Source of the DNA: Lachnospiraceae bacterium
GTDB taxonomy: Bacteria; Bacillota; Clostridia; Lachnospirales; Lachnospiraceae
Reading direction: 5' to 3'
Assembly (NCBI GenBank): GCA_017482485.1
Contig: JAFUMV010000001.1
Span: 1 to 64,000, forward strand
Length of the DNA stretch: 64,000 bases
The translations under genes were made by a program, and so were the position numbers. The notes beneath the pieces are model-generated. The model worked only from the letters and a program-made list of their open reading frames with translations. It was not told where the DNA came from and ran no database searches. Position 1 is the first letter of the stretch; every line of letters begins with the position of its first letter. This document shows positions 8,400 through 50,415 of this stretch, in pieces.

Positions 8400-10080
8400 T
8401 TATTTTCTTCCCTTACTTTTTTTCTGAATTGTTTTCATCTGACTTTTGGTAATAAATTTGAAATCTGTATCGAAACCACAAATTCTGTGTAATGCATCTG
8501 TTAGCTTGTCACGTGTATAAAGGGGAATAAATCCCTGTTCTTGTATATCTGCAAAATTCATAGTTTTTAGTTTGTCCAGGATTGTCTCACATGTAAAGCT
8601 GTGCCCTAAACCTTTTTCAAGATAACGATATATGACCAATGTAAGAAAACAGATCAGGAAATGTGCTTTTATTCGGTTATCGTCTTGAAGAAATACAGGT
8701 CTGGCTTCAAAATCTGTTTTCATTATACGGAAACATTCTTCAATCTCCCAACGCCCTTCGCTTACTTTTAAAATATCTTTCACATCATCATCTAACAGAT
8801 CTGTAGTTACGGCATACATTCCGTCATAAAGAGCTTCTTCCTCTACTTTGTCTGTATCCAGATAATTCTCAATCTTTGCAGCTTCTCCTTCTTTTGTAAC
8901 TGCGATTTTTCCTATAAAACGTGCAGGATCGTTTGGATTTCTGCGTTCTTTTTTTGCTTTTCCGGAACTGAGCACCTTTTCGGCACGTTCTACCTGTGCG
9001 TCACGTATTGATTTCTGATACCTTGCATATTTGGGTGAGTAGGTGACGATCAGGCGCTGATGAAGCGCTGATGAAGCGCATGGGGAGTATAGGGCTCATC
9101 CTTATAATACAATCCGTTATCATCTTCCGGGATTTTGGAAAGGTCAACAGGCAGATCGTCCGAAACGCGTTTGAAACCCTTCCTGTCCAGTGCCCATTTT
9201 TTATCATCCTTATTTAACTTTTTGATAGACTGGGTGACAATGAACGCCCTCTCACCTGCATGATTTATTTTTTTGATTGCTTCTGAACCAAGTCCTGCAT
9301 CACTGCAGTAAATAAATTTGGTACATTCAAAATCCTGAAGGACTTTCTCTTCCAATGGTTTTAATGATGTCTGTTCATTCGCATTTCCCGGGAAAAGGGA
9401 AAATGCCAGCGGGATTCCGTCTCCATCCATAAACATCCCCATCTGAATGATGGGATTGGGACGATGTTCTTTGGATTTGCCGTATTTTTTATCATCGTCT
9501 TCCTGTTCGATTTCAAAGAAATAGTTTGTGCAGTCATAATAGAGTATCTTATCATTCCGTTTTCCAAGCAGATGACTGTTTTTATACACTTCTGACTGGA
9601 TAAAATCGCATTCCTTTCCTAAAACATCAAGAGAACGATAAACATCATGTATCTGATACGAAGGTTTTTCCAGAAACTCGGAAGCTGTTTTAAAAGAAGA
9701 AAGCTTGCTGGCCGGTTCCAGGATTCTGGCATAGATCAGATCGGAAAGGATAGCGTTGATATCATACTGGAATCGATATTTATCGCGGAGTTTCCGACAT
9801 GTTTTATCAAGCTGGAGACGATAGTAAAAGGTCTGCGGGAAAAGATAGCCGCCACGGTAAAAGACCTGCTGATCATAATCCAGCTTTTGGTCAAATGAAA
9901 TGTGATCTGTACAGCCTCTGCCTGCTGTTCCCTTTTATATTTAAGAGTTTCTATTCTGGCTTCCTCTTTCGCCCATTTCATGACATCCTCGCGGGTAGGA
10001 CCGTGTTCGATCAGAAGCTCCTTAAGGGTTCCGAGTTTACGTAGGTTAACGGATGTACTTTTGATGGCTGGAGAGTCATC
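8400..10080 (-). pseudogene. IS1634-like (IS4-type) transposase, frameshifted
   Basis: Read on the minus strand, three frames together make one IS1634-like DDE transposase. The N-terminal piece (about 10080-9900) ends where a one-base shift is needed near 9890-9915. The central piece carries the first two catalytic Asp residues (YYDCTNYFFEIE and YCSDAGLGSEA). The C-terminal piece, open to 8400, carries the Glu (GRWEIEECFRIMKTDFEARP). The central and C-terminal pieces are split by an exact 11-bp tandem duplication at 9054-9075. With two frameshifts and no clear start it should be dead. I could not identify terminal inverted repeats, so the element borders are unknown. Confidence 0.85.
9054..9075 (-). 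repeat. 11-bp tandem duplication that breaks the transposase
   Basis: GCGCTGATGAA occurs twice in direct succession. Removing one copy joins ALHQR to LIVTYSPKYARYQK in frame with the rest of the transposase, so the duplication is the inactivating event. Confidence 0.9.
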
Positions 10081-10220
10081 CTTTTATTTTTGGTCGCTAA
10101 TGTGCTGATGAATCGTTATTTTTATGTTGAATACAAAATATTGAGATGATAATTTAAAGATGGGGAATAATATTCATGTATTGCGAATACGGTTTCCGAT
10201 GGGATCAGGAGGGGAAGGAA

Positions 10221-11285
10221 ATGTTTAAGGTTCTGTTGGTAGATGACGATGTGAATATGCTTGAACTGCTGAAAAAGAAGGTTCCATGGGAACAGTATGG
10301 ATATACCGTGATGGGAACTGTAAAAAACGGCGAAGAAGCGCTTCAGATGATCAGGCAGTCAATGCCCAATCTGATCATCACGGATGTGAAAATGCCGGTG
10401 ATGGACGGTCTGGATTTCTGCAAATGCGTGCGTCAGCTTAGGGATGATATTCCGATCATATTGCTGAGCGCCTATGAGGATATGGAAACAGCACGCATTG
10501 CCATGAAATATAATGTTACGGAATATTTGCTGAAGCCTCTCAATCAGCAGAACATTCAATTGCTGTGTCAGATTCTGCAGGAGCTGGTGCATAACTATGA
10601 ACAGCAGATATTTTTTACATCAATATGCAATCAGATCAGCAGACAAAATGAAATTTCAGAGCATCTGGCAGCGGAAGATGAGGAGTGGTTCAGAGAATTT
10701 TTTTCTCACTATACCAACTGCTTTTCCATACGCTTTCAGCTGGTTGAAGCCGCCTGTTTTACAATGATTAAGCTGTTGTATGCAGGCCGTCCGGACAGCA
10801 GGTATCTGATCGGGCAGCAAAGTGAAAAATTAAAGCAGTGTGTTACCAAGCTTGAGATGGTGTCACTTGTGGCCGGGCTTTATGATCAGACTTTGCATGC
10901 AGATGCCGGAGAATCCGGTTCCATTGATTATCAGGACAGCATATTCCGGCAGATATTTGATTATATTTCCAACAACTATATGCTGGCCGACTGCAGCGCG
11001 TCCATGCTTGCAGAAAGGTTTCATTTTTCGGCCGATCATATCAGCAGGTTGTTCAAACGTTATACGGGTGAGACTTTGAACGTTTATATCAATAAAAGAC
11101 GTATGGAATATGCGCTTGAACTTTTGCGCAATCCGGTTCTTTCTATTAATGAAATAGCCATTCGGTCAGGATTTCGCAATCAGAATTATTTCTCAAGAGT
11201 GTTCCGAAAACAGCTGCAGGTGTCCCCTACGGAATATCGGCTGCAGTGTCAGTTAGAAATGGAGAAACTGGAAAATGAGAAATAA
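10221..11285 (+). CDS. YesN-like response regulator, receiver plus AraC HTH
   Basis: The 354-residue protein has a receiver domain (1-120) with acidic triad LVDDD, phosphoacceptor D55 in LIITDVKMP and the conserved Lys in EYLLKPL. A linker follows, then two AraC helix-turn-helix motifs at the end (SADHISRLFKRYTGETLN and FRNQNYFSRVFRKQ). Start ATG 10221 is preceded by GGAGGGGAAGGA; an earlier in-frame ATG at 10176 lacks a site. The gene overlaps the next (a YesM-type kinase) by 11 bases. It most likely switches on the transporter and hydrolase genes downstream. Since its partner kinase is broken in this orientation of the locus, its activation state is doubtful. Confidence 0.93.
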   Translation: MFKVLLVDDDVNMLELLKKKVPWEQYGYTVMGTVKNGEEALQMIRQSMPNLIITDVKMPVMDGLDFCKCVRQLRDDIPIILLSAYEDMETARIAMKYNVTEYLLKPLNQQNIQLLCQILQELVHNYEQQIFFTSICNQISRQNEISEHLAAEDEEWFREFFSHYTNCFSIRFQLVEAACFTMIKLLYAGRPDSRYLIGQQSEKLKQCVTKLEMVSLVAGLYDQTLHADAGESGSIDYQDSIFRQIFDYISNNYMLADCSASMLAERFHFSADHISRLFKRYTGETLNVYINKRRMEYALELLRNPVLSINEIAIRSGFRNQNYFSRVFRKQLQVSPTEYRLQCQLEMEKLENEK

Positions 11286-12795
11286 AAGAAAGAGGAATCT
11301 TTTTCAGCGCCTGTCCATCGGCCTGTTTTCCATTCTGATCAGCATATCCGTGGCGCTTACCGCAGGCTTTTCCATCTATTATAAACAGCAGGCGGACGAG
11401 TCCGTTTATGAGAGTATCCGTCAGGTAGCGGATAACAATGCCTCAAATATATCAAAAGCGTTCAGCCAGATGGAAATGGCAATCAACACTTTGAACAGTG
11501 AAAATTCCGGAATCCGGGAAAAGATTATGTACTATGAAGGAGACAGTAAAAGTCTGGTTCAGTCATTTTATCAGACGATAGAGCTGCTGGAAAATTATAT
11601 CGATATTGCTTTGCAGTCATTTACCAACAAATATCATGTATATTTTTTCATGAATCCTGAGTTTGAGGTTTATGAGAAACTGACGGCGATAGAAATTGAA
11701 GGTGCTTCTCTGGACGGCAATGCCTGGGTGTACTCTGATGAGCTGGTGTGCGATGAAGAATGGTTTCAATGGACGCAGGAAAATCCGAATCAAAGCCTTT
11801 GGCTCACCATGGGGGATGATAATGAAAAACTCTGTATGGTGCGCAGCCTTCAATATATGAGAATAAATAATAATTACACGGTAATCAATGAGGTGGCCGG
11901 GGTGGAGACGGTTGTGCTGGGAGTCATTTTTATTGCGATGGACACCTCCTGGATACGGGAGCATGTAGATGCTTCTGAGCTGTCTTCTGATACGATATTC
12001 TGGCTGACGGATAAAGATGGAAATATTTTATATACTTCTGATCCGAAAGCGGGAGAGGGAGAAGATTTGTCATGGCTTAGGGAAAACATCGGTGCCAATC
12101 AGCTGATCAAACTGCAGGATGAAAAATACGCGGTGGAAGTCAATCATGTGACACAGGAACTGGATCTGGTGACGCTGGTTCCTGACGTGGAAGTGCAGCA
12201 AAATTATTTCAGATCGCTGCTGCCGTTTTTTATGTTACTGGCTGCTGCACTTTTGCTTGGAGGAGGCATCAGCATTCTGTTTTCCCGCAGGATGACAAGA
12301 GATATTCTGTTCCTTGCACAGCATATGCGGAATACAAAAATCACGCCGATTGAATCCATTCAGTCCATTCAGGATGAGGATATCAGCATTTTGTATGAGA
12401 GCTATAACACGCTGATTTACCGGGTGGAAGAGTCTGCCAGAATACAAATGGAGCACATGGAGGAGATGCGCAGGATGGAGCTGAATCTCATGCAGGCGCA
12501 GATCAATCCCCATTTTCTCTGCAATTCTCTGAATTCTGTATATAATGTGGCGGTTTTGCATAATGAAGAAACAATCGCGAACGCGGTGCAGGGATTATGC
12601 ACTTTTTTGCGATATAATGTTTCTGCTCCCAACTTTAAAATTATCACAATTATCCGACAGGCCTCAATGATAAATACTCGATTCATTAGCACTATTCCGG
12701 CTTTTTATAGTATTTTCAACAAAATTATATACAAAATTAACAAACAGCACAAAAAAACATACAGCATGTTATCTTTCATGCTGTATGCCGAATGA
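11275..12795 (+). CDS. Truncated YesM-type sensor kinase (ATPase domain cut off by inversion)
   Basis: Residues 1-453 are a normal YesM-type sensor: membrane segment near 12-38, extracellular domain, second membrane segment near 318-342, HAMP-like linker and His413 in QINPHFLCNSLNSV. After RYNVSAPN (base 12633) the sequence stops matching the family and reads a 53-residue unrelated tail to a stop. The missing ATPase domain lies just downstream on the opposite strand (12803-13273). As it stands the product cannot bind ATP and should not phosphorylate the regulator. It could persist as a sensor-only membrane protein. Confidence 0.9.
   Translation: MRNKRKRNLFQRLSIGLFSILISISVALTAGFSIYYKQQADESVYESIRQVADNNASNISKAFSQMEMAINTLNSENSGIREKIMYYEGDSKSLVQSFYQTIELLENYIDIALQSFTNKYHVYFFMNPEFEVYEKLTAIEIEGASLDGNAWVYSDELVCDEEWFQWTQENPNQSLWLTMGDDNEKLCMVRSLQYMRINNNYTVINEVAGVETVVLGVIFIAMDTSWIREHVDASELSSDTIFWLTDKDGNILYTSDPKAGEGEDLSWLRENIGANQLIKLQDEKYAVEVNHVTQELDLVTLVPDVEVQQNYFRSLLPFFMLLAAALLLGGGISILFSRRMTRDILFLAQHMRNTKITPIESIQSIQDEDISILYESYNTLIYRVEESARIQMEHMEEMRRMELNLMQAQINPHFLCNSLNSVYNVAVLHNEETIANAVQGLCTFLRYNVSAPNFKIITIIRQASMINTRFISTIPAFYSIFNKIIYKINKQHKKTYSMLSFMLYAE
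12747..12752 (-). promoter_or_regulatory. Candidate -35 of a minus-strand promoter in the inverted segment
   Basis: Minus-strand TTGTGC lies 17 bases before a perfect TATAAT (12724-12729). In the present orientation it points back into the kinase; after reversal it would point at the transporter operon. The -35 is weak (3 of 6), so this is a candidate only. Confidence 0.4.
12751..12787 (-). terminator. Terminator of the (reversed) kinase gene
   Basis: Perfect 11-bp arms CATACAGCATG and CATGCTGTATG with an 8-base loop. On the minus strand the stem runs into seven T. It lies 15 bases past the stop of the kinase ATPase fragment, as expected for the end of the intact kinase transcript. Confidence 0.88.
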
Positions 12796-12802
12796 AATTG
12801 AT

Positions 12803-13273
12803 TCATAATAGAATTGCTACGGTATCCGGAAGTTCTACACAGGCGGCTACGCCTCCTTCTTCCGTCCGGGTATAATGCAGACGAAAGCTTTCGCCATATC
12901 TCATTTTGATGCGTTGATTCACATTGCAAATCCCAATTCCATGCTCCTTCAATCCGCTGTTATCATCTGCCTCCCGCAAAGTCTGATTAATATTGTCAAC
13001 AAGCCTTCCGCTTCCGTTGTCCTCTACAACAATACAGAACTTTTTCTCCCCTACAAAACAGGAAATTTTTATTTCCACAAAATCATTTCCATTGTTATGC
13101 ATAATGCAGTTTTCCACAAGGGGCTGAAGCAGCATTTTGGGAATGTATGTCCGATCGGAATCCACTTTTGCATCATAATCAAAAATAATCCGATCCCCGC
13201 ACAGAAAATTCTGCAGCAAAATATAATTTTCAAGCATATCGAGTTCCCGCTGCAAAGGCACTAATGTGAAATT
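12803..13273 (-). pseudogene. Detached ATPase domain of the sensor kinase (opposite strand)
   Basis: On the minus strand this 156-codon open frame reads NNFTLVPLQRELDMLENY and continues with an N box (PLVENCIMHN), DNGSG and GIGICNVNQRI. That is the HATPase_c half of a YesM kinase. It has no start codon with a ribosome site; the first in-frame ATG-like start would be internal. It completes the kinase truncated at 12633 when the 640-bp segment is turned round, so it should be read as the second exon-like half of a broken gene, not as an independent protein. Confidence 0.92.
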
Positions 13274-13290
13274 GTTATGGGAGTGAAAAA

Positions 13291-14018
13291 ATGAAGCAGG
13301 GAAAGCATTATTTTTGGAAAAACATCTGGAAGAACAGAGCCTTATTGCTGTTCGTGCTGCCGGGACTGACTCTGATCATCATGTTTAATTACGTGCCGAT
13401 GGCCGGACTGGTTCTCGCCTTTAAGAATTATAAGTTTAACAAGGGCATCTGGGGCAGCGACTGGTGCGGCCTCAATAATATCCGGTTTTTGTTTATGACG
13501 GGTGATACGACCTGGAGAATATTCCGGAATACGGTGGGATATTATTTTCTGTTCCGCATCATCGGAACTATTGCGGATGTATCTCTTGCCATCGCTTTAA
13601 ACGAATGCCGCAATAAGTATTTTGCAAAGGTATCCCAGACAATCATGATCATGCCTACCTTCATCTCTTTTGTGGCGGTTTCCTTTATTTTGAGAGGTTT
13701 GCTTGCTGACAAGGGTATCGTCAATTCTCTGATCACCATGTGTTATCAAACATGATCGCGATTCTGACCCTGTTAAGTCTTGGCAGCATCATGACATCCA
13801 ATACCGGTCTGTTTTATCAGTGTACCTTAAATATCGGCGCTCTGTATCCCACGACTCAGACGCTGGATGCCTATGTGCTGAATGCGCTGGTCAATGATGG
13901 CAGCAACTTCAGCGTCACCGCTGCGATTACGCTGTTCCAGTCGGTGGTGGGCTGTGTCATGGTGGTGGTGGTCAACCTGATTACACGGAAGATTTCACCG
14001 GAACATTCCCTGTTCTAA
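13291..14018 (+). pseudogene. LplB-type sugar ABC transporter permease with internal deletion
   Basis: Two frames make up one permease. The first (13291-13755) has the LplB opening ALLLFVLPGLTLIIMFNYVP and the first membrane helices to GIVNSLIT. The second (frame of 13740-14018) resumes at MLSNMIAILTLLSLGSIM and runs to the usual end ITRKISPEHSLF. Compared with LplB-type permeases of about 310 residues, some 60-70 residues are gone, including the EAA loop that contacts the ATPase, and the join at about 13740 shifts the frame. The start follows TGGGAG. The product should not work as a transporter subunit. Confidence 0.88.
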
Positions 14019-14045: not shown

Positions 14046-14936
14046 ATGAAAAATCGAATGAAAAAATCACAGCCTGTATTAACCCTGATACTGGGTTTAC
14101 TGGCAGTGGTATGCCTGCTCCCGCTGGTTCTGGTAATCATTGTTTCTTTTACGGATGAAACCAGTCTCAGCGAAAAAGGTTTCAGCTTTTTCCCGGGTGC
14201 CTGGTCATTAAAAGGCTGGCAGTATGTGGCGGAATACAGCGGTCAGATATTGAAATCCTACCAGATCACATTGTTTGAGGTAATTGTGGGCACCTGCGTT
14301 ACCCTGCTGTTTACCAGCATGTTTGCCTATGCTCTGAGCAGAAAAGACTGGGTGCTGAACAGATTCCTTTCTGTAGTTCTTTTGATCACCATGCTGTTTA
14401 ACGGCGGTATGGTATCTTCCTATATTGTAAATACGAACATGTATCATCTGAAGGATAATTTGCTGGTACTGGTTCTGCCCGGTGCGGTTTCGGCTTTCAA
14501 CTGCATTGTGATGCGCACTTTCATCCAGAGCAATATTCCGGATTCGCTGATTGAGGCGGCCAAGATTGACGGAGCGGGCGAATTTTATCTTTTTTTTCAG
14601 GTAGTTCTTCCTCTGATGATACCTTCTTTGGCGGCGATCGGTTTTATGTCCGCGATCGGCCACTGGAATGAATGGCAGCAGTGTATGCTTTATATTGATG
14701 ATCCCAATAAAACAACTCTGCAGCTTTTGCTGGTGAGAATAGAGAAGAGTCTGGAATATCTGCGTAACAATATGGATAATCTGACGCCGGGACAGATTGA
14801 GCGTCTGAACCGCGCTCCCGGAACTTCCATGCGCATGGCACTTCTCTGCGTGACAATGGGACCGATCCTGATCGTATATCCGTTTTTCCAACGGTATTTT
14901 ATTCAGGGCATTACCGTAGGCGCTGTAAAGGGCTGA
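14046..14936 (+). CDS. YtcP-type sugar ABC transporter permease
   Basis: This intact 296-residue inner-membrane permease has about six membrane helices and the EAA loop motif EAAKIDGAGEF, followed by LPLMIPSLAAIGF. It ends with the typical YPFFQRYFIQGITVGAVKG. A GGAGG site lies upstream; an ATG at 14038 is out of frame and closes at once. It should pair with the LplB-type permease just upstream and the lipoprotein just downstream. No ATPase gene is present, as usual for this class, which borrows a shared MsmX-type ATPase. With its partner damaged, the complex is probably incomplete. Confidence 0.92.
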   Translation: MKNRMKKSQPVLTLILGLLAVVCLLPLVLVIIVSFTDETSLSEKGFSFFPGAWSLKGWQYVAEYSGQILKSYQITLFEVIVGTCVTLLFTSMFAYALSRKDWVLNRFLSVVLLITMLFNGGMVSSYIVNTNMYHLKDNLLVLVLPGAVSAFNCIVMRTFIQSNIPDSLIEAAKIDGAGEFYLFFQVVLPLMIPSLAAIGFMSAIGHWNEWQQCMLYIDDPNKTTLQLLLVRIEKSLEYLRNNMDNLTPGQIERLNRAPGTSMRMALLCVTMGPILIVYPFFQRYFIQGITVGAVKG

Positions 14937-15043: not shown

Positions 15044-16618
15044 ATGAGAAAAGGGAAGAAAATTGTTTCTGCAATGATGATGGCAGCGATGATGATGAGC
15101 ACACTGCTTACAGCATGTGGAAGCGCAGAAGAAGCATCCGGCTCTTCTGCTGAAAAGGAAACAGCAAAAGAGGTTGTTTCAGAAGAAGCAGCTGCAGCGG
15201 AAACCGTTGTGGAAGAAGCTGCTCCTGAAGTACAGGAGCTGGAACCCGTAGAACTGGTAGTATTTATTAATCAGTTTACAGGTACTGATGATGCAGTGGT
15301 AGCAGAAGCTGTCAACAATCTGGATGCTGTGAAGGATTTGAATGTAACGGTGAAGTTCAAGACGCTGAATGAAGGCGACAACTTCTTCAACGAAGTGGAT
15401 CTTGCACTTGTCAGCGGTGAGAAGATCGATATCATCATGGGTGACTCCGGAGCTTCTCACTTCCCTGTAGCTTCTGCAGACGGCGCTTATGCGGATCTGA
15501 CAGAGCTTCTGCAGACAAAGTACACAACTCTGTACAACACCCTGCGCGAAGATCACTGGAAAGCGGCTACCGTTAACGGCGCTATTTACGGTGTTCCCTG
15601 TTATAAGGAAGGCTGTCTGAAATGGGGCTTTTATATTCCTCACGATTTCGTTGAGAAATATGATATCGACTTAAGCGGACGCACCATTTTCGAAATCGAT
15701 GATATTCTGGAAAAGCTCAAGGAAGACGGTCGTGAAGGCCTCATGCTTACATATTCTCAGGCAAGCTGGTATATGGGCAGCGCATATCAGGCAAAATACA
15801 GAAACCTTTACGGCAATCTCGCTTGTATGAGCATCGAAAACCCCGGAACCGTAGAAAACTGGTTCATGACCGATACCTACAGAGAACTTGCACATCAGGC
15901 AAAAGAATGGTATGAGAAGGGCTATCTGCCGGAAGATATTCTGACGGTTGAAAACTTTGATGTTGAAAAGTTTGATGCAGATGTCTTTGGTCTGGAAACT
16001 GTAACTTACTTCCCCGGAAGAGAATATCAGGAAAGTGCAAATCGCGGATTTGAACTGGATTTCCTGGCTATGACCCCTTATATCAATGTTCTGGATGATC
16101 CCGGATGGGTTCAGACTATCACTTCCAGCTGTGAAGACGTTGACCGCGCGCTGGCATTCCTCGAGGTTCTGAACACTGTACCTGAAGTGAAGAATACCTT
16201 TACCTATGGCGTGGAAGGTGTGCATTATGATCTGACAGAAGCAGGACAGGTGGATTACACAAATTATCCCGATCATGCGGATGTATGGAACGGCGACAGC
16301 TCCAGAATGGGCAACATGCTGATCGGTTATTCTCCTGTTGGTTTCCCGGAAGAAGGCTATGCGATTTTTGATGAGGCAATGGAAGAAGCTGTTGATATTC
16401 CTACCATCGGTTTCCGCGCCAACACAGAGAGCATTTCCAATGAATATGCTGCAATGACCGCTATTGTGAGCGAATACAACAATCTGCTGCTGTCCGGTAC
16501 TGTAGAGGACGTTGATGCAACTGTAGATGAGTTCGTTGCGAAACTGGAAGCCGCAGGCGCACAGAAGGTTCTGGATGAAATCCAGGCTCAGTGGGATGCA
16601 TTTGAAGCATCGAAATAA
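15044..16618 (+). CDS. Sugar ABC transporter substrate-binding lipoprotein
   Basis: The 524-residue protein starts with a lipoprotein signal peptide ending in LLTACGS, so Cys26 would be lipidated. An Ala/Glu-rich linker (about 28-67) leads to a two-lobed binding domain of the LipO/YtcQ type that usually takes oligosaccharides. AAAGGAGGG lies just ahead of the start. A stem-loop follows the stop, which can protect the 3' end and keep this subunit more abundant than the genes after it. It works outside the membrane with the two permeases upstream. Ligand not known; GH32 and GH2 downstream point to fructan- or galactose-type glycans. Confidence 0.92.
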   Translation: MRKGKKIVSAMMMAAMMMSTLLTACGSAEEASGSSAEKETAKEVVSEEAAAAETVVEEAAPEVQELEPVELVVFINQFTGTDDAVVAEAVNNLDAVKDLNVTVKFKTLNEGDNFFNEVDLALVSGEKIDIIMGDSGASHFPVASADGAYADLTELLQTKYTTLYNTLREDHWKAATVNGAIYGVPCYKEGCLKWGFYIPHDFVEKYDIDLSGRTIFEIDDILEKLKEDGREGLMLTYSQASWYMGSAYQAKYRNLYGNLACMSIENPGTVENWFMTDTYRELAHQAKEWYEKGYLPEDILTVENFDVEKFDADVFGLETVTYFPGREYQESANRGFELDFLAMTPYINVLDDPGWVQTITSSCEDVDRALAFLEVLNTVPEVKNTFTYGVEGVHYDLTEAGQVDYTNYPDHADVWNGDSSRMGNMLIGYSPVGFPEEGYAIFDEAMEEAVDIPTIGFRANTESISNEYAAMTAIVSEYNNLLLSGTVEDVDATVDEFVAKLEAAGAQKVLDEIQAQWDAFEASK

Positions 16619-24377: not shown

Positions 24378-25847
24378 ATGGAATTGTTGAATAAAAAAAA
24401 GACAGGGAAGGCAGAACGGCCAATTAAGGTATTACAGTTTGGGGAAGGAAATTTCCTACGCGGTTTTGTGGATTATATGATCGATATCGCCAATGAAAGA
24501 GGATATTTCGCAGGAGATATCGTACTGGTAAAGCCCATCGAATCCGGCACGCTGGAGAGACTGCGCAATCAGGAATGTCAGTATACAGTTTCCCTGAGAG
24601 GCATTGCAGACGGCAAACCTGCTGTGCAAAACCGCATTGTTACGAGCGTGACAGATGCGGTTGCGTCATATGAAGAGTATGACAGATACAGCGAATATGC
24701 AAAACTTGATACACTCAGGTTTATCGTATCCAATACAACAGAGGCCGGAATCGTGTACGACAAAAACGACAGGCTTAAGATGTGTCCTCCCGCCAGTTTC
24801 CCCGGAAAACTGTCCAAGTTCCTTTATGAAAGATACCAATATTTCGATGGCGCATATGATAAAGGCCTCGTGATGCTCCCTGTTGAACTGATCGATGACA
24901 ATGGCATTCATTTAAAGGAATGTGTGCTGAAGCAGGCGGATAACTGGGGACTGGAAGAAGGATTTAAGCGGTGGCTGAATGAGGCATGCGTATTTACCTC
25001 CACACTTGTTGACCGTATCATTACCGGATATCCTGCCGGTGAGGACAGACGGCTGTGGGAAGAATGGGGATATGAAGACCACAATATCGTAACAGGTGAG
25101 CCATTTGCGCTCTGGGTCATTGAAAGTGAAAAGGATATCAGCGGAGAACTGCCGTTGACGAAAGCCGGTCTTCCTGTCATTTTTACAGACAATCAGAAGC
25201 CTTATAAACAGAGAAAGGTCAGAATCCTGAATGGTGCGCATACATCCTTTGTGCTGGCTTCTTTCCTGGCAGGCAACGATTATGTGCTAGAGTCTATGGA
25301 AGATAAAATGCTATATGAGTTCATGTATCATTGCATTTATGATGAAGTGATTCCCACTCTCACGTTGCCGAAGGAGGAATTAAAGGAATTTGCCCAGGCA
25401 GTGATCACCCGGTTCAGAAATCCTTATGTGAAGCATTCACTTTTATCCATATCCCTGAATTCAGTATCCAAATGGCGCGCAAGATGTATGCCGAGCCTTC
25501 TTGCCTATGTGGAGAACACGGGTGAACTGCCGAAGCGTCTGACCTTTTCTGTCGCTGCCCGGATGGCTTTCTATTCTGCAACCGAGAGACAGGACAAGGT
25601 CCTGATCGGAAAGCGTGACGGTGAAGCATATAAGATCATGGATGATGCTGCAGTATTGGATTTCTTTGCGGCAAACTGCAAAAAGGAAACAGCTGAATTT
25701 GTAAATCTGTGCCTGTCCAATGTTGCATTTTGGGGACAAAATCTGACAGAAATCGACGGTCTGGCTGATCAGGCAGCAGCATATCTTGAGGATGTCAGAA
25801 CGCTTGGTATGCGCAAGGCGATGCAGAAAAACTTTGGGGAAGACTGA
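24378..25847 (+). CDS. uxaB: Tagaturonate reductase (altronate oxidoreductase)
   Basis: This 489-residue member of the long-chain mannitol dehydrogenase family shows the UxaB-type opening LQFGEGNFLRGFVDYMID and the catalytic-region motif VRILNGAHTSFVL with its Lys upstream (KQRK). It reduces D-tagaturonate to D-altronate with NADH in galacturonate breakdown. An AAGGAGAG site precedes the ATG. It stands directly before altronate dehydratase, which uses its product. Uronate isomerase, KDG kinase and KDPG aldolase genes are not in the window and must lie elsewhere if the pathway is complete. Confidence 0.9.
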   Translation: MELLNKKKTGKAERPIKVLQFGEGNFLRGFVDYMIDIANERGYFAGDIVLVKPIESGTLERLRNQECQYTVSLRGIADGKPAVQNRIVTSVTDAVASYEEYDRYSEYAKLDTLRFIVSNTTEAGIVYDKNDRLKMCPPASFPGKLSKFLYERYQYFDGAYDKGLVMLPVELIDDNGIHLKECVLKQADNWGLEEGFKRWLNEACVFTSTLVDRIITGYPAGEDRRLWEEWGYEDHNIVTGEPFALWVIESEKDISGELPLTKAGLPVIFTDNQKPYKQRKVRILNGAHTSFVLASFLAGNDYVLESMEDKMLYEFMYHCIYDEVIPTLTLPKEELKEFAQAVITRFRNPYVKHSLLSISLNSVSKWRARCMPSLLAYVENTGELPKRLTFSVAARMAFYSATERQDKVLIGKRDGEAYKIMDDAAVLDFFAANCKKETAEFVNLCLSNVAFWGQNLTEIDGLADQAAAYLEDVRTLGMRKAMQKNFGED

Positions 25848-37830: not shown

Positions 37831-38409
37831 ATGAAAAAGAAATATCTTATTTTGACGATGAGTGTGATGCTTGGAATGTCTGTTGTTGGCTGTGGAGGCG
37901 CACAGACCGCTCAGACACAGCAGGTGCAGGAAAACGCAGTACAGGAAAGAAGCGGGCAGAGACCTGAGATAAACACCAATATGGTCCGCGGAGAAGTGAC
38001 AGAACTTACCGGGGAAAGTATTACGATTCAGGATGAAAATGGTGAAAGCCAGATCATTCCCATCATAGCTGAAACGACGTTTACAAAAATGGAAGTGGGT
38101 AAAATGGCAGATGGCGGCGAAAAGCCTGCTGATGGCGAGGCACCGGAAAAGCCGGACGGCGAAAAGCCCGCTGATGGCGAGGCACCGGAAAGGCCGGACG
38201 GTGAAAAGCCTGCCGATGGCGAGGCGCCTGAAAAACCTGTCGATGGTGAAATGCCCACAGAAGGCGGCCGCAGAGGAGGCATGCCCCAGGGAGAAGAAAT
38301 CGCCTGGTCAGATATTGCAGTGGGCGATACGGTCATGATTATTCTGACAGAGGACGGAAATGCGGAAAGCGTAAGCCTGATGTCCGGGGAGATGCCGGTA
38401 AAAGAATAA
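37831..38409 (+). CDS. Small lipoprotein with Pro/Glu/Lys repeats
   Basis: A 192-residue secreted lipoprotein: signal peptide, lipobox VVGCGG, then a small beta region (MVRGEVTELTGESITIQDEN) resembling domains found in calcium or metal-tolerance lipoproteins. Next come three 14-residue repeats of the type EKPADGEAPEKPDG (about 97-138) and an acidic tail. The repeats probably form an extended, mobile arm on the cell surface. AGGAGGAAAG precedes the ATG. It faces the AraC gene tail to tail. No enzymatic function can be read from the sequence. Confidence 0.8.
   Translation: MKKKYLILTMSVMLGMSVVGCGGAQTAQTQQVQENAVQERSGQRPEINTNMVRGEVTELTGESITIQDENGESQIIPIIAETTFTKMEVGKMADGGEKPADGEAPEKPDGEKPADGEAPERPDGEKPADGEAPEKPVDGEMPTEGGRRGGMPQGEEIAWSDIAVGDTVMIILTEDGNAESVSLMSGEMPVKE
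38119..38244 (+). repeat. Three tandem 42-bp in-frame repeats in the lipoprotein
   Basis: Units at 38119-38160, 38161-38202 and 38203-38244, each coding for 14 residues. The first two are nearly identical at DNA level; the third has drifted. Slippage or recombination could change the copy number without shifting the frame. Confidence 0.9.
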
Positions 38410-49008: not shown

Positions 49009-50415
49009 ATGTACGCAATCGGAATTGACATTGGAACTACCAGCATCTGCGGTGTTGTACTGGATATCGATACGGGAAAGGTAATAAAATCCCGCACAGA
49101 GATGAGCAATGCTTTTATAACAACATCCAATTCGTGGGAAAAAATGCAGGATACGAATAAAGTGATCGACCTTGCCATTGAGATTCTGGAAAGTTTTTCA
49201 GAGTACCCTGCGGCAGTGATCGGCGTCACCGGTCAGATGCACGGAATCGTTTATGTGGACTGTGAGGGAAAAGCGGTGAGCCCCCTTTATACCTGGCAGG
49301 ATGCGAGAGGAAATCTGCCTTACCGGGATACGACTTACGCCGATTATCTGGGAAGTTTTTCCGGGTATGGAAATGTGACCGATTTTTATAACCGGATCAA
49401 TCACATCCGTCCGGCAGAGGCTGTCTCACACTGTACCATCATGGATTATCTTGTGATGGTGCTCTGCGGCCTGAAAACGCCGAAAATCCATACCACCAAT
49501 GCCGCCAGTCTGGGATGTTTTGATCTGAAAGAAAAGCGCTTTTCCTATGACATCAATGCAGAGATCAGCGATTCTTTTGAGATTGCAGGCTATTATAAAA
49601 ATATTCCGGTGAGCGTTGCCATCGGCGATAATCAGGCCAGCGTTTTTTCCACGCTGGCCGATGAAAGAGATCTTCTGATCAACGTGGGAACCGGCAGCCA
49701 GATTTCCGTCATTTCCGATCAGATCAGAACCGGGGAAAATATTGAGACACGACCTTATTTTGACGGAAAATATCTGGTTGTGGGCGCGGCGCTGTGCGGC
49801 GGCAGAGCCTATGGCATGCTGAAGGATTTCTATACGGAATTTTTGCAGGCAGCCGGGGTGAGCGTGCCGGATGTATATGCGGTCATGAACCGCATGCTTG
49901 CAGGCCATGCAGAGGAAGCCCGCCGCGCGGAAAGTGCAGGCCATGCAGAGGAAGCCCGTCGTGTGGAAAGTGCAGGCCATGCGGAGGCGGCCCGTCACAC
50001 GGAAAGTGCAGGCCATGCAGAGGCGGCCCGCCATCTGAAATCCGCCCTGCGGGTGGACACCCGTTTTGCCGGAACAAGGCAGAATCCCCGTTTGCGCGGT
50101 TCAATCAGCGAAATTTCGGTGGATAACTTCACGCCTGAAAATCTGACCTGTGGATTTTTAGAGGGCATGATGGAGGAACTTTATGAAATGTATGACCGGA
50201 TGGGAGAAAAACGCATCAATCTGGTGGGCTCCGGAAACGGTATCCGCAAAAACAAAGCGCTGGTGAAAATTGCGGAGCGCCTCTTTGAAGGCACGTTGAG
50301 AATTCCCGCACATACAGAGGAAGCGGCCTGCGGTGCAGCGCTGTTTGGCCTGGTGGCCTGCAGGGCATTTTTGACGGCTGCCGAGGTGCAGAAGCTGATC
50401 AGGTATGAAGAATAG
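49009..50415 (+). CDS. FGGY-family kinase, sedoheptulokinase-like, with internal repeat
   Basis: A 468-residue kinase with phosphate loops GIDIGTTSICGVV and LINVGTGSQISV, catalytic Asp in AIGDNQASV, and GVTGQMHGIVYVD, LYTWQDARGN and LVGSGNGIRKN in the pattern of sedoheptulokinase (SHPK). It should phosphorylate a ketose or similar polyol at a terminal hydroxyl. Residues 298-345 are a four-fold 12-residue repeat rich in Ala, Glu and Arg, sitting in a surface position between domains. It follows the radical enzyme gene by 72 bases and ends the operon. The exact sugar is not determined by sequence. Confidence 0.87.
   Translation: MYAIGIDIGTTSICGVVLDIDTGKVIKSRTEMSNAFITTSNSWEKMQDTNKVIDLAIEILESFSEYPAAVIGVTGQMHGIVYVDCEGKAVSPLYTWQDARGNLPYRDTTYADYLGSFSGYGNVTDFYNRINHIRPAEAVSHCTIMDYLVMVLCGLKTPKIHTTNAASLGCFDLKEKRFSYDINAEISDSFEIAGYYKNIPVSVAIGDNQASVFSTLADERDLLINVGTGSQISVISDQIRTGENIETRPYFDGKYLVVGAALCGGRAYGMLKDFYTEFLQAAGVSVPDVYAVMNRMLAGHAEEARRAESAGHAEEARRVESAGHAEAARHTESAGHAEAARHLKSALRVDTRFAGTRQNPRLRGSISEISVDNFTPENLTCGFLEGMMEELYEMYDRMGEKRINLVGSGNGIRKNKALVKIAERLFEGTLRIPAHTEEAACGAALFGLVACRAFLTAAEVQKLIRYEE
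49900..50043 (+). repeat. Four tandem 36-bp repeats inside the kinase gene
   Basis: Units begin at 49900, 49936, 49972 and 50008, each coding for 12 residues of the type AGHAEEARRAES. Units 1 and 2 are almost identical and units 3 and 4 share the AEAAR variant. The block keeps frame, so copy number could vary without breaking the enzyme. Confidence 0.93.

Follow-up and report, generated by a model that had tools for sequence, protein, structure and literature searches.

How did the two halves of one histidine kinase gene come to lie on opposite strands beside a sugar ABC importer in a Lachnospiraceae genome, and can turning the DNA between them still restore the gene? We analysed positions 1 to 64,000 of contig JAFUMV010000001.1 (64,000 nucleotides, hereafter the window), for which an earlier note had proposed an inversion of the segment 12634-13273, acting either as an on/off switch or as a fixed change. 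The fixed form is better supported, since the segment ends carry no convincing repeats, the contig contains no match to either of the two recombinase families searched (resolvase and integrase), reversal leaves a loop of a length unusual in the family and a second lesion lies next door, while the on/off form draws only on the geometry of the segment and a weak gapped similarity between its ends. The reading we consider most likely, with a probability of roughly 0.8, is that a single, fairly recent, illegitimate inversion of ~628 bases disabled the locus, which would then not be a reversible switch; the inversion is probably fixed.

The broken kinase comprises the following features.

11275..12633, plus strand: N-terminal part of the kinase, a membrane sensor followed by the His_kinase H-box (QINPHF), with homology ending at 12633.
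12634..12795, plus strand: the last 53 codons of the present 506-aa ORF, with no homology to the kinase and running backwards through a predicted promoter and terminator.
12803..13261, minus strand: C-terminal part of the kinase, HATPase_c, an open frame of 152 aa stranded on the minus strand.
12634..13261, no strand assigned: inverted segment within revised limits, ~628 bases (12634-13273 in the earlier note).

The ORF at 11275-12795 (plus strand) has 506 codons, only the first 453 of which belong to the kinase, confirming the loss of homology at codon 453. A dCache match in the N-terminal part falls under Pfam's cut-off, and the present ORF matches His_kinase over positions 1-59 of 81 and has no HATPase_c match. 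The ATPase half lies on the opposite strand, as had been claimed, where HATPase_c is matched with an E value of 5.4e-9 (Pfam; query 12803-13273). Reversal of 12634-13273 by script yields one ORF of 609 aa, in which the PF06580 match improves to 75.9 bits (positions 1-81), from 52.7 bits (1-59 of 81) in the present form; only after reversal does the H-box precede an ATPase domain in one frame, the arrangement of YesM-type kinases (PF06580 + PF02518). The intact paralogue of 605 residues described upstream is likewise present, as an open 634-aa frame (348-2252) in which 605 residues are counted from Met30.

Searching 5.8 billion proteins with the 609-aa reversed form gave 895 matches, the best 120 of which were used. 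Among the matches listed, nine relatives (P0002-P0010) align over 99-100% of the 609-aa length with 43-64% identity, bearing out the in-frame joining proposed earlier, and all nine are continuous through both kinase halves. The names YesM and sugar permease are taken from the source annotations of the relatives. At the DNA level the reversed form gives a single nucleotide alignment across the junction with the relative G066 (L044), a member of the Lachnospiraceae that encodes P0005, whereas the present form aligns to the same DNA as separate plus-strand and minus-strand pieces. The kinase break is thus spanned by continuous homology in intact relatives (nine by protein, one by DNA), which makes the inversion real relative to the family.

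Next to the segment lies a transporter operon that carries a lesion of its own.

10176..11285, plus strand: response regulator with REC and AraC-type HTH domains, for which the 350-aa regulator of G066 suggests ATG 10221 as the likelier start.
13291..13755, plus strand: permease 1, N-fragment, matching P0121 residues 4-149 (at 13300-13737).
13740..14018, plus strand: permease 1, C-fragment, matching P0121 residues 218-309 (at 13740-14015).
14046..14936, plus strand: permease 2 (ABC), open, 296 aa (G066 counterpart 297 aa).
15044..16618, plus strand: solute-binding-protein-like lipoprotein (DUF3502), open, 524 aa (G066 counterpart 516 aa).
8400..8975, minus strand: transposase piece (DDE_Tnp_1, E 2.4e-5), upstream of the response regulator.

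The two fragments of permease 1 are in different frames and lack the 68 residues corresponding to P0121 150-217 (the G066 permease is 69% identical to P0121). Where 204 nt would be expected there are 2, which leaves the gene about 202 nt shorter and shifts the frame; none of the other 49 permease matches in the genome contains a stop codon. As permease 1 is broken in either orientation, turning the segment back is not expected to give a working importer.

Beside the transposase piece, the minus-strand ORFs 9050-9589 and 9736-9981 are without a Pfam match; they are assigned to the transposase remains solely by position. Elsewhere in the window, a 36-nt tandem repeat (49899-50032, 3.7 copies) adds an Ala/Glu/Arg-rich insert to an open frame (49009-50415) that is sugar kinase-like by eye, and a 42-nt tandem repeat (38115-38234, 2.9 copies), Pro/Glu/Lys-rich, lies in a small open frame (37831-38409) that is lipoprotein-like by eye. 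Rfam and tRNA searches of the window returned no matches.

The stranded C-terminal part of the kinase is 69% identical to P0002, and P0002 and P0003 are 67% identical to each other; given this ordinary conservation, the break looks recent. Among the matches listed, the window's locus is represented by the present form only, and no near-identical intact kinase occurs among the best 120 of the 895 matches. Our searches for either orientation found no second genome of the same species. A scan of genome contigs for close relatives returned one locus with a best segment of 37% identity, and 39 of 61 genomes searched with the N-terminal part had some match, the best outside its own genome being 26% identical. 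At a threshold of 1e-80 the kinase type was found in none of the 12 other genomes of the genus and in 1 of 396 others sampled from the family, and at 1e-110 in none of 391 others sampled from the order; in the family and order samples at most three first-look candidates per genome were scored among those listed, and misses there are weaker than in the genus search.

An artefact of assembly or amplification, the living genome having an intact kinase, is in our judgement unlikely. The genome is a draft of 153 contigs and 90% completeness, the two odd lesions are no more than 500 nt apart and the 506-aa kinase is listed on one contig only, with 3 member sequences. Against an artefact, identical copies of the C-terminal part are listed for 2 contigs and of the permease N-fragment for 3; both counts include the window's contig, and the others may stem from the same sample and so not be independent. 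An assembler also has little reason to flip or delete pieces whose ends lack convincing repeats, as is the case here, and the usual chimera has a single junction, whereas this inversion is nearly balanced at both ends.

The segment holds predicted regulatory elements in addition to the ATPase half, and similar elements occur upstream of the response regulator.

10102..10115, plus strand: predicted response-regulator operator in the form GTGCTGATGAATCG, upstream of the response regulator and pointing towards it.
12640..12667, minus strand: predicted promoter of the transporter operon, TTGAGG-16-GATAAT, ending 6 nt before the breakpoint.
12679..12692, minus strand: the same predicted operator, in the form GTGCTAATGAATCG, now pointing away from the transporter operon and its permease.
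12756..12789, minus strand: predicted intrinsic terminator with a 13-pair stem, 3′ of the kinase stop codon when the segment is read reversed, the inferred ancestral direction.
13262..13290, plus strand: what is left of the transporter leader, including a Shine-Dalgarno-like GGGAG; the earlier note placed its first 12 nt inside the segment.

The predicted transporter promoter had gone unnoticed when the choice between a fixed and a switching inversion was first put forward. The left end of the segment aligns both to the leader of the G066 permease and to the region upstream of the response regulator; the former contains the same operator followed by TTGAGG-17-TATCAT (the pairing of TTGAGG with this -10 is our reading), and the region of GTGCTGATGAATCG upstream of the regulator has a similar -10 region too. 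Perfect matches to the operator pattern GTGCTRATGAATCG number two in the window's genome and two in G066 (C14:17475-17488 and 24403-24416), with 3 and 5 more, respectively, at one mismatch, and the same pattern written backwards as a control matched in neither genome. A promoter scan showed no enrichment (9 found against 12.2 expected from shuffles), and the promoter assignment therefore rests on similarity to other leaders; terminator-like sites numbered 7 against 4.1 in shuffles. Beyond the operator and promoter the 5′ leaders of the window and G066 align poorly, and gene order differs as well, the G066 kinase being followed by an 800-aa ORF with the permease about 7 kb away; the ancestral order was accordingly derived from the window itself. 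We infer that the regulator acts at GTGCTRATGAATCG, which would be a predicted operator of this two-component system. With a predicted operator-promoter at its left end, the segment's inversion most likely disconnected kinase and transporter operon together, depriving the former of its ATPase and the latter of its promoter. An 11-nt repeat, GCGCTGATGAA (9054-9079, 2.4 copies), near the end of the presumed transposase piece, resembles the operator pattern with two mismatches, probably by chance.

The limits of the segment were revised from the residues at the kinase junction. The loop has the form SxP(N/Q/D)-I(E/D/S)-(V/I)xL in each of the nine relatives, with two residues (IE, ID or IS) at its centre, while exact reversal of 12634-13273 gives SAPN-NFTL-VPL, in which four residues (NFTL) replace the two. 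The spacing from R to E across this loop (..RYNVSAPN..VPLQREL..) is 14 residues in 107 of 118 kinases, 13 in 8, 15 in 2 and 16 in 1 (an alignment-based set of 119 listed matches, from which 2 lacking a usable H-box region were dropped and to which the upstream paralogue was added), and it is 16 in the reversed form. Both comparisons move the right end, earlier placed at 13273, to about 13261: in view of the two-residue loop of the relatives, kinase DNA would stop there, and on the simplest account the 12 nt at 13262-13273 belong to the transporter leader, whose GGGAG lies at 13279 and whose ATG lies at 13291. The placing of these 12 nt in the leader is based on protein comparison, G066 being the one relative compared as DNA. 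With kinase DNA ending at 13261, about 6 nt (two codons) of the kinase seem to have been lost at the junction.

These junction residues bear on whether the segment could be a reversible, recombinase-driven switch, an inverton reaching from the kinase interior to the transporter leader. Such a two-in-one switch, in which a flip of ~630 bp would swap out the ATPase half and at the same time turn the regulator's target promoter from the transporter operon, so that sensor and transporter promoter went on and off together, strikes us as quite improbable. Reversal does join the kinase in frame and point the predicted promoter at the operon, and both parts of the kinase have kept open frames, which a switch would also need. 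Yet the spacing of the loop after reversal matches just 1 of 118 relatives and the reversed junction departs from the family in all nine cases (NFTL against IE, ID or IS, as judged by the relatives and not by the ancestor), a change that a conservative site-specific flip is not expected to leave, and permease 1 is broken in both orientations.

The imperfect inverted repeats that had been described at the segment ends are not convincingly above chance expectation. An exact match of 6 nt (CTCCCA) is the longest that occurs within 25 nt of the two ends, a length equalled by 42% of 1500 random position pairs and, with the offset held within 3 nt, by 7.9% of 20,000 random pairs; this match shares bases with the complement of the Shine-Dalgarno-like site of the permease itself, and with the revised end and a fixed offset the longest exact repeat is only 4 nt. 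Gapped similarity at the end of the earlier note scores 11, with P = 0.007, 0.03 and 0.08 for flanks of 20, 30 and 40 nt, and at the revised end 9 (P 0.05 at 20 nt) and 11 (P 0.03 and 0.08 at 30 and 40 nt). Of these, the value of 0.007 with 20-nt flanks speaks most strongly for repeats; it fades as the flanks widen, and we do not regard it as sufficient. In PMC11892184, invertons are described with inverted repeats of 10-40 nt, against which the ends of this segment fall short. The genome contains both serine and tyrosine recombinases, yet all 3 of its PF00239 (resolvase) and 7 of its PF00589 (integrase) matches are on other contigs, leaving none on this one (C143). An inverton's recombinase is often, but not always, adjacent to its ends.

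The weakest alternative, that the minus-strand piece is no inversion and derives from a different kinase gene (a second copy or an insertion), could appeal to the 16 matches to the N-terminal part in the genome and is highly improbable, given that the N- and C-terminal parts align in full with the same relatives and at similar levels, that the piece, in its own direction, precedes the predicted terminator and the operator-promoter expected before the permease, and that the genome matches of the region, itself aside, are at most 87 nt long.

A single illegitimate inversion would account for the locus as follows. In the ancestral arrangement the response regulator may have been followed by the whole kinase, a terminator, the operator-promoter, permeases 1 and 2 and the binding protein, in that order. 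One break would lie in the loop that follows the kinase H-box, where some 6 nt (two codons) have apparently gone missing, and the other 6 nt beyond the predicted -10 box of the transporter promoter, close to the start site predicted for it. The predicted outcome is a kinase that lacks its ATPase, a C-terminal part that lacks a promoter, and a transporter operon separated from its own operator and transcribed, if at all, by read-through from the response regulator. The breaks in homology, the residues at the junction, the similarity of the operators and the lesion in permease 1 are observed in the sequence, while the single event, its mechanism, its fixation and the ensuing loss of function are proposed. 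The whole looks like a sensor-transporter locus in decay.

Known systems offer partial parallels. YesM-type (PF06580) kinases with an AraC-type regulator beside a sugar ABC importer have the same domains as this locus once the kinase is rejoined, with the REC-HTH_AraC regulator and importer genes adjacent; the present locus differs in the inversion that splits its kinase and in the deletion within permease 1. Invertons and intragenic DNA inversions are treated in PMC11892184 and PMC11868660, with Chanin et al. 2024 cited there. The segment resembles an inverton as a short stretch reversed within a gene and carrying a predicted promoter, and differs in showing neither repeats of 10-40 nt nor a resolvase or integrase family gene on the contig, nor evidence of the other orientation, nor an exact reversal that looks family-like. 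Pseudogenes formed by small illegitimate inversions share the want of convincing repeats, the small junctional loss and the neighbouring second lesion, and differ in that one break here falls about at a promoter's predicted start site and two functions are hit at once. Among the listed titles and abstract beginnings of the literature found, none described a comparable case. The inversion is ordinary in kind, its notable detail being that one flip hits a sensor and its target promoter.

Were the two-in-one switch true after all, sensing and uptake would be lost and regained together, by way of very short or degenerate sites. On the preferred reading of a fixed, illegitimate inversion, the lesion would show in clear form that one small inversion is able to silence a sensor together with its target operon. 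It also carries a caution, as an in-frame ORF rebuilt by reversal is by itself no evidence for a switch, and the junction residues of relatives help to discriminate. The predicted operator GTGCTRATGAATCG provides a testable candidate for this two-component system.
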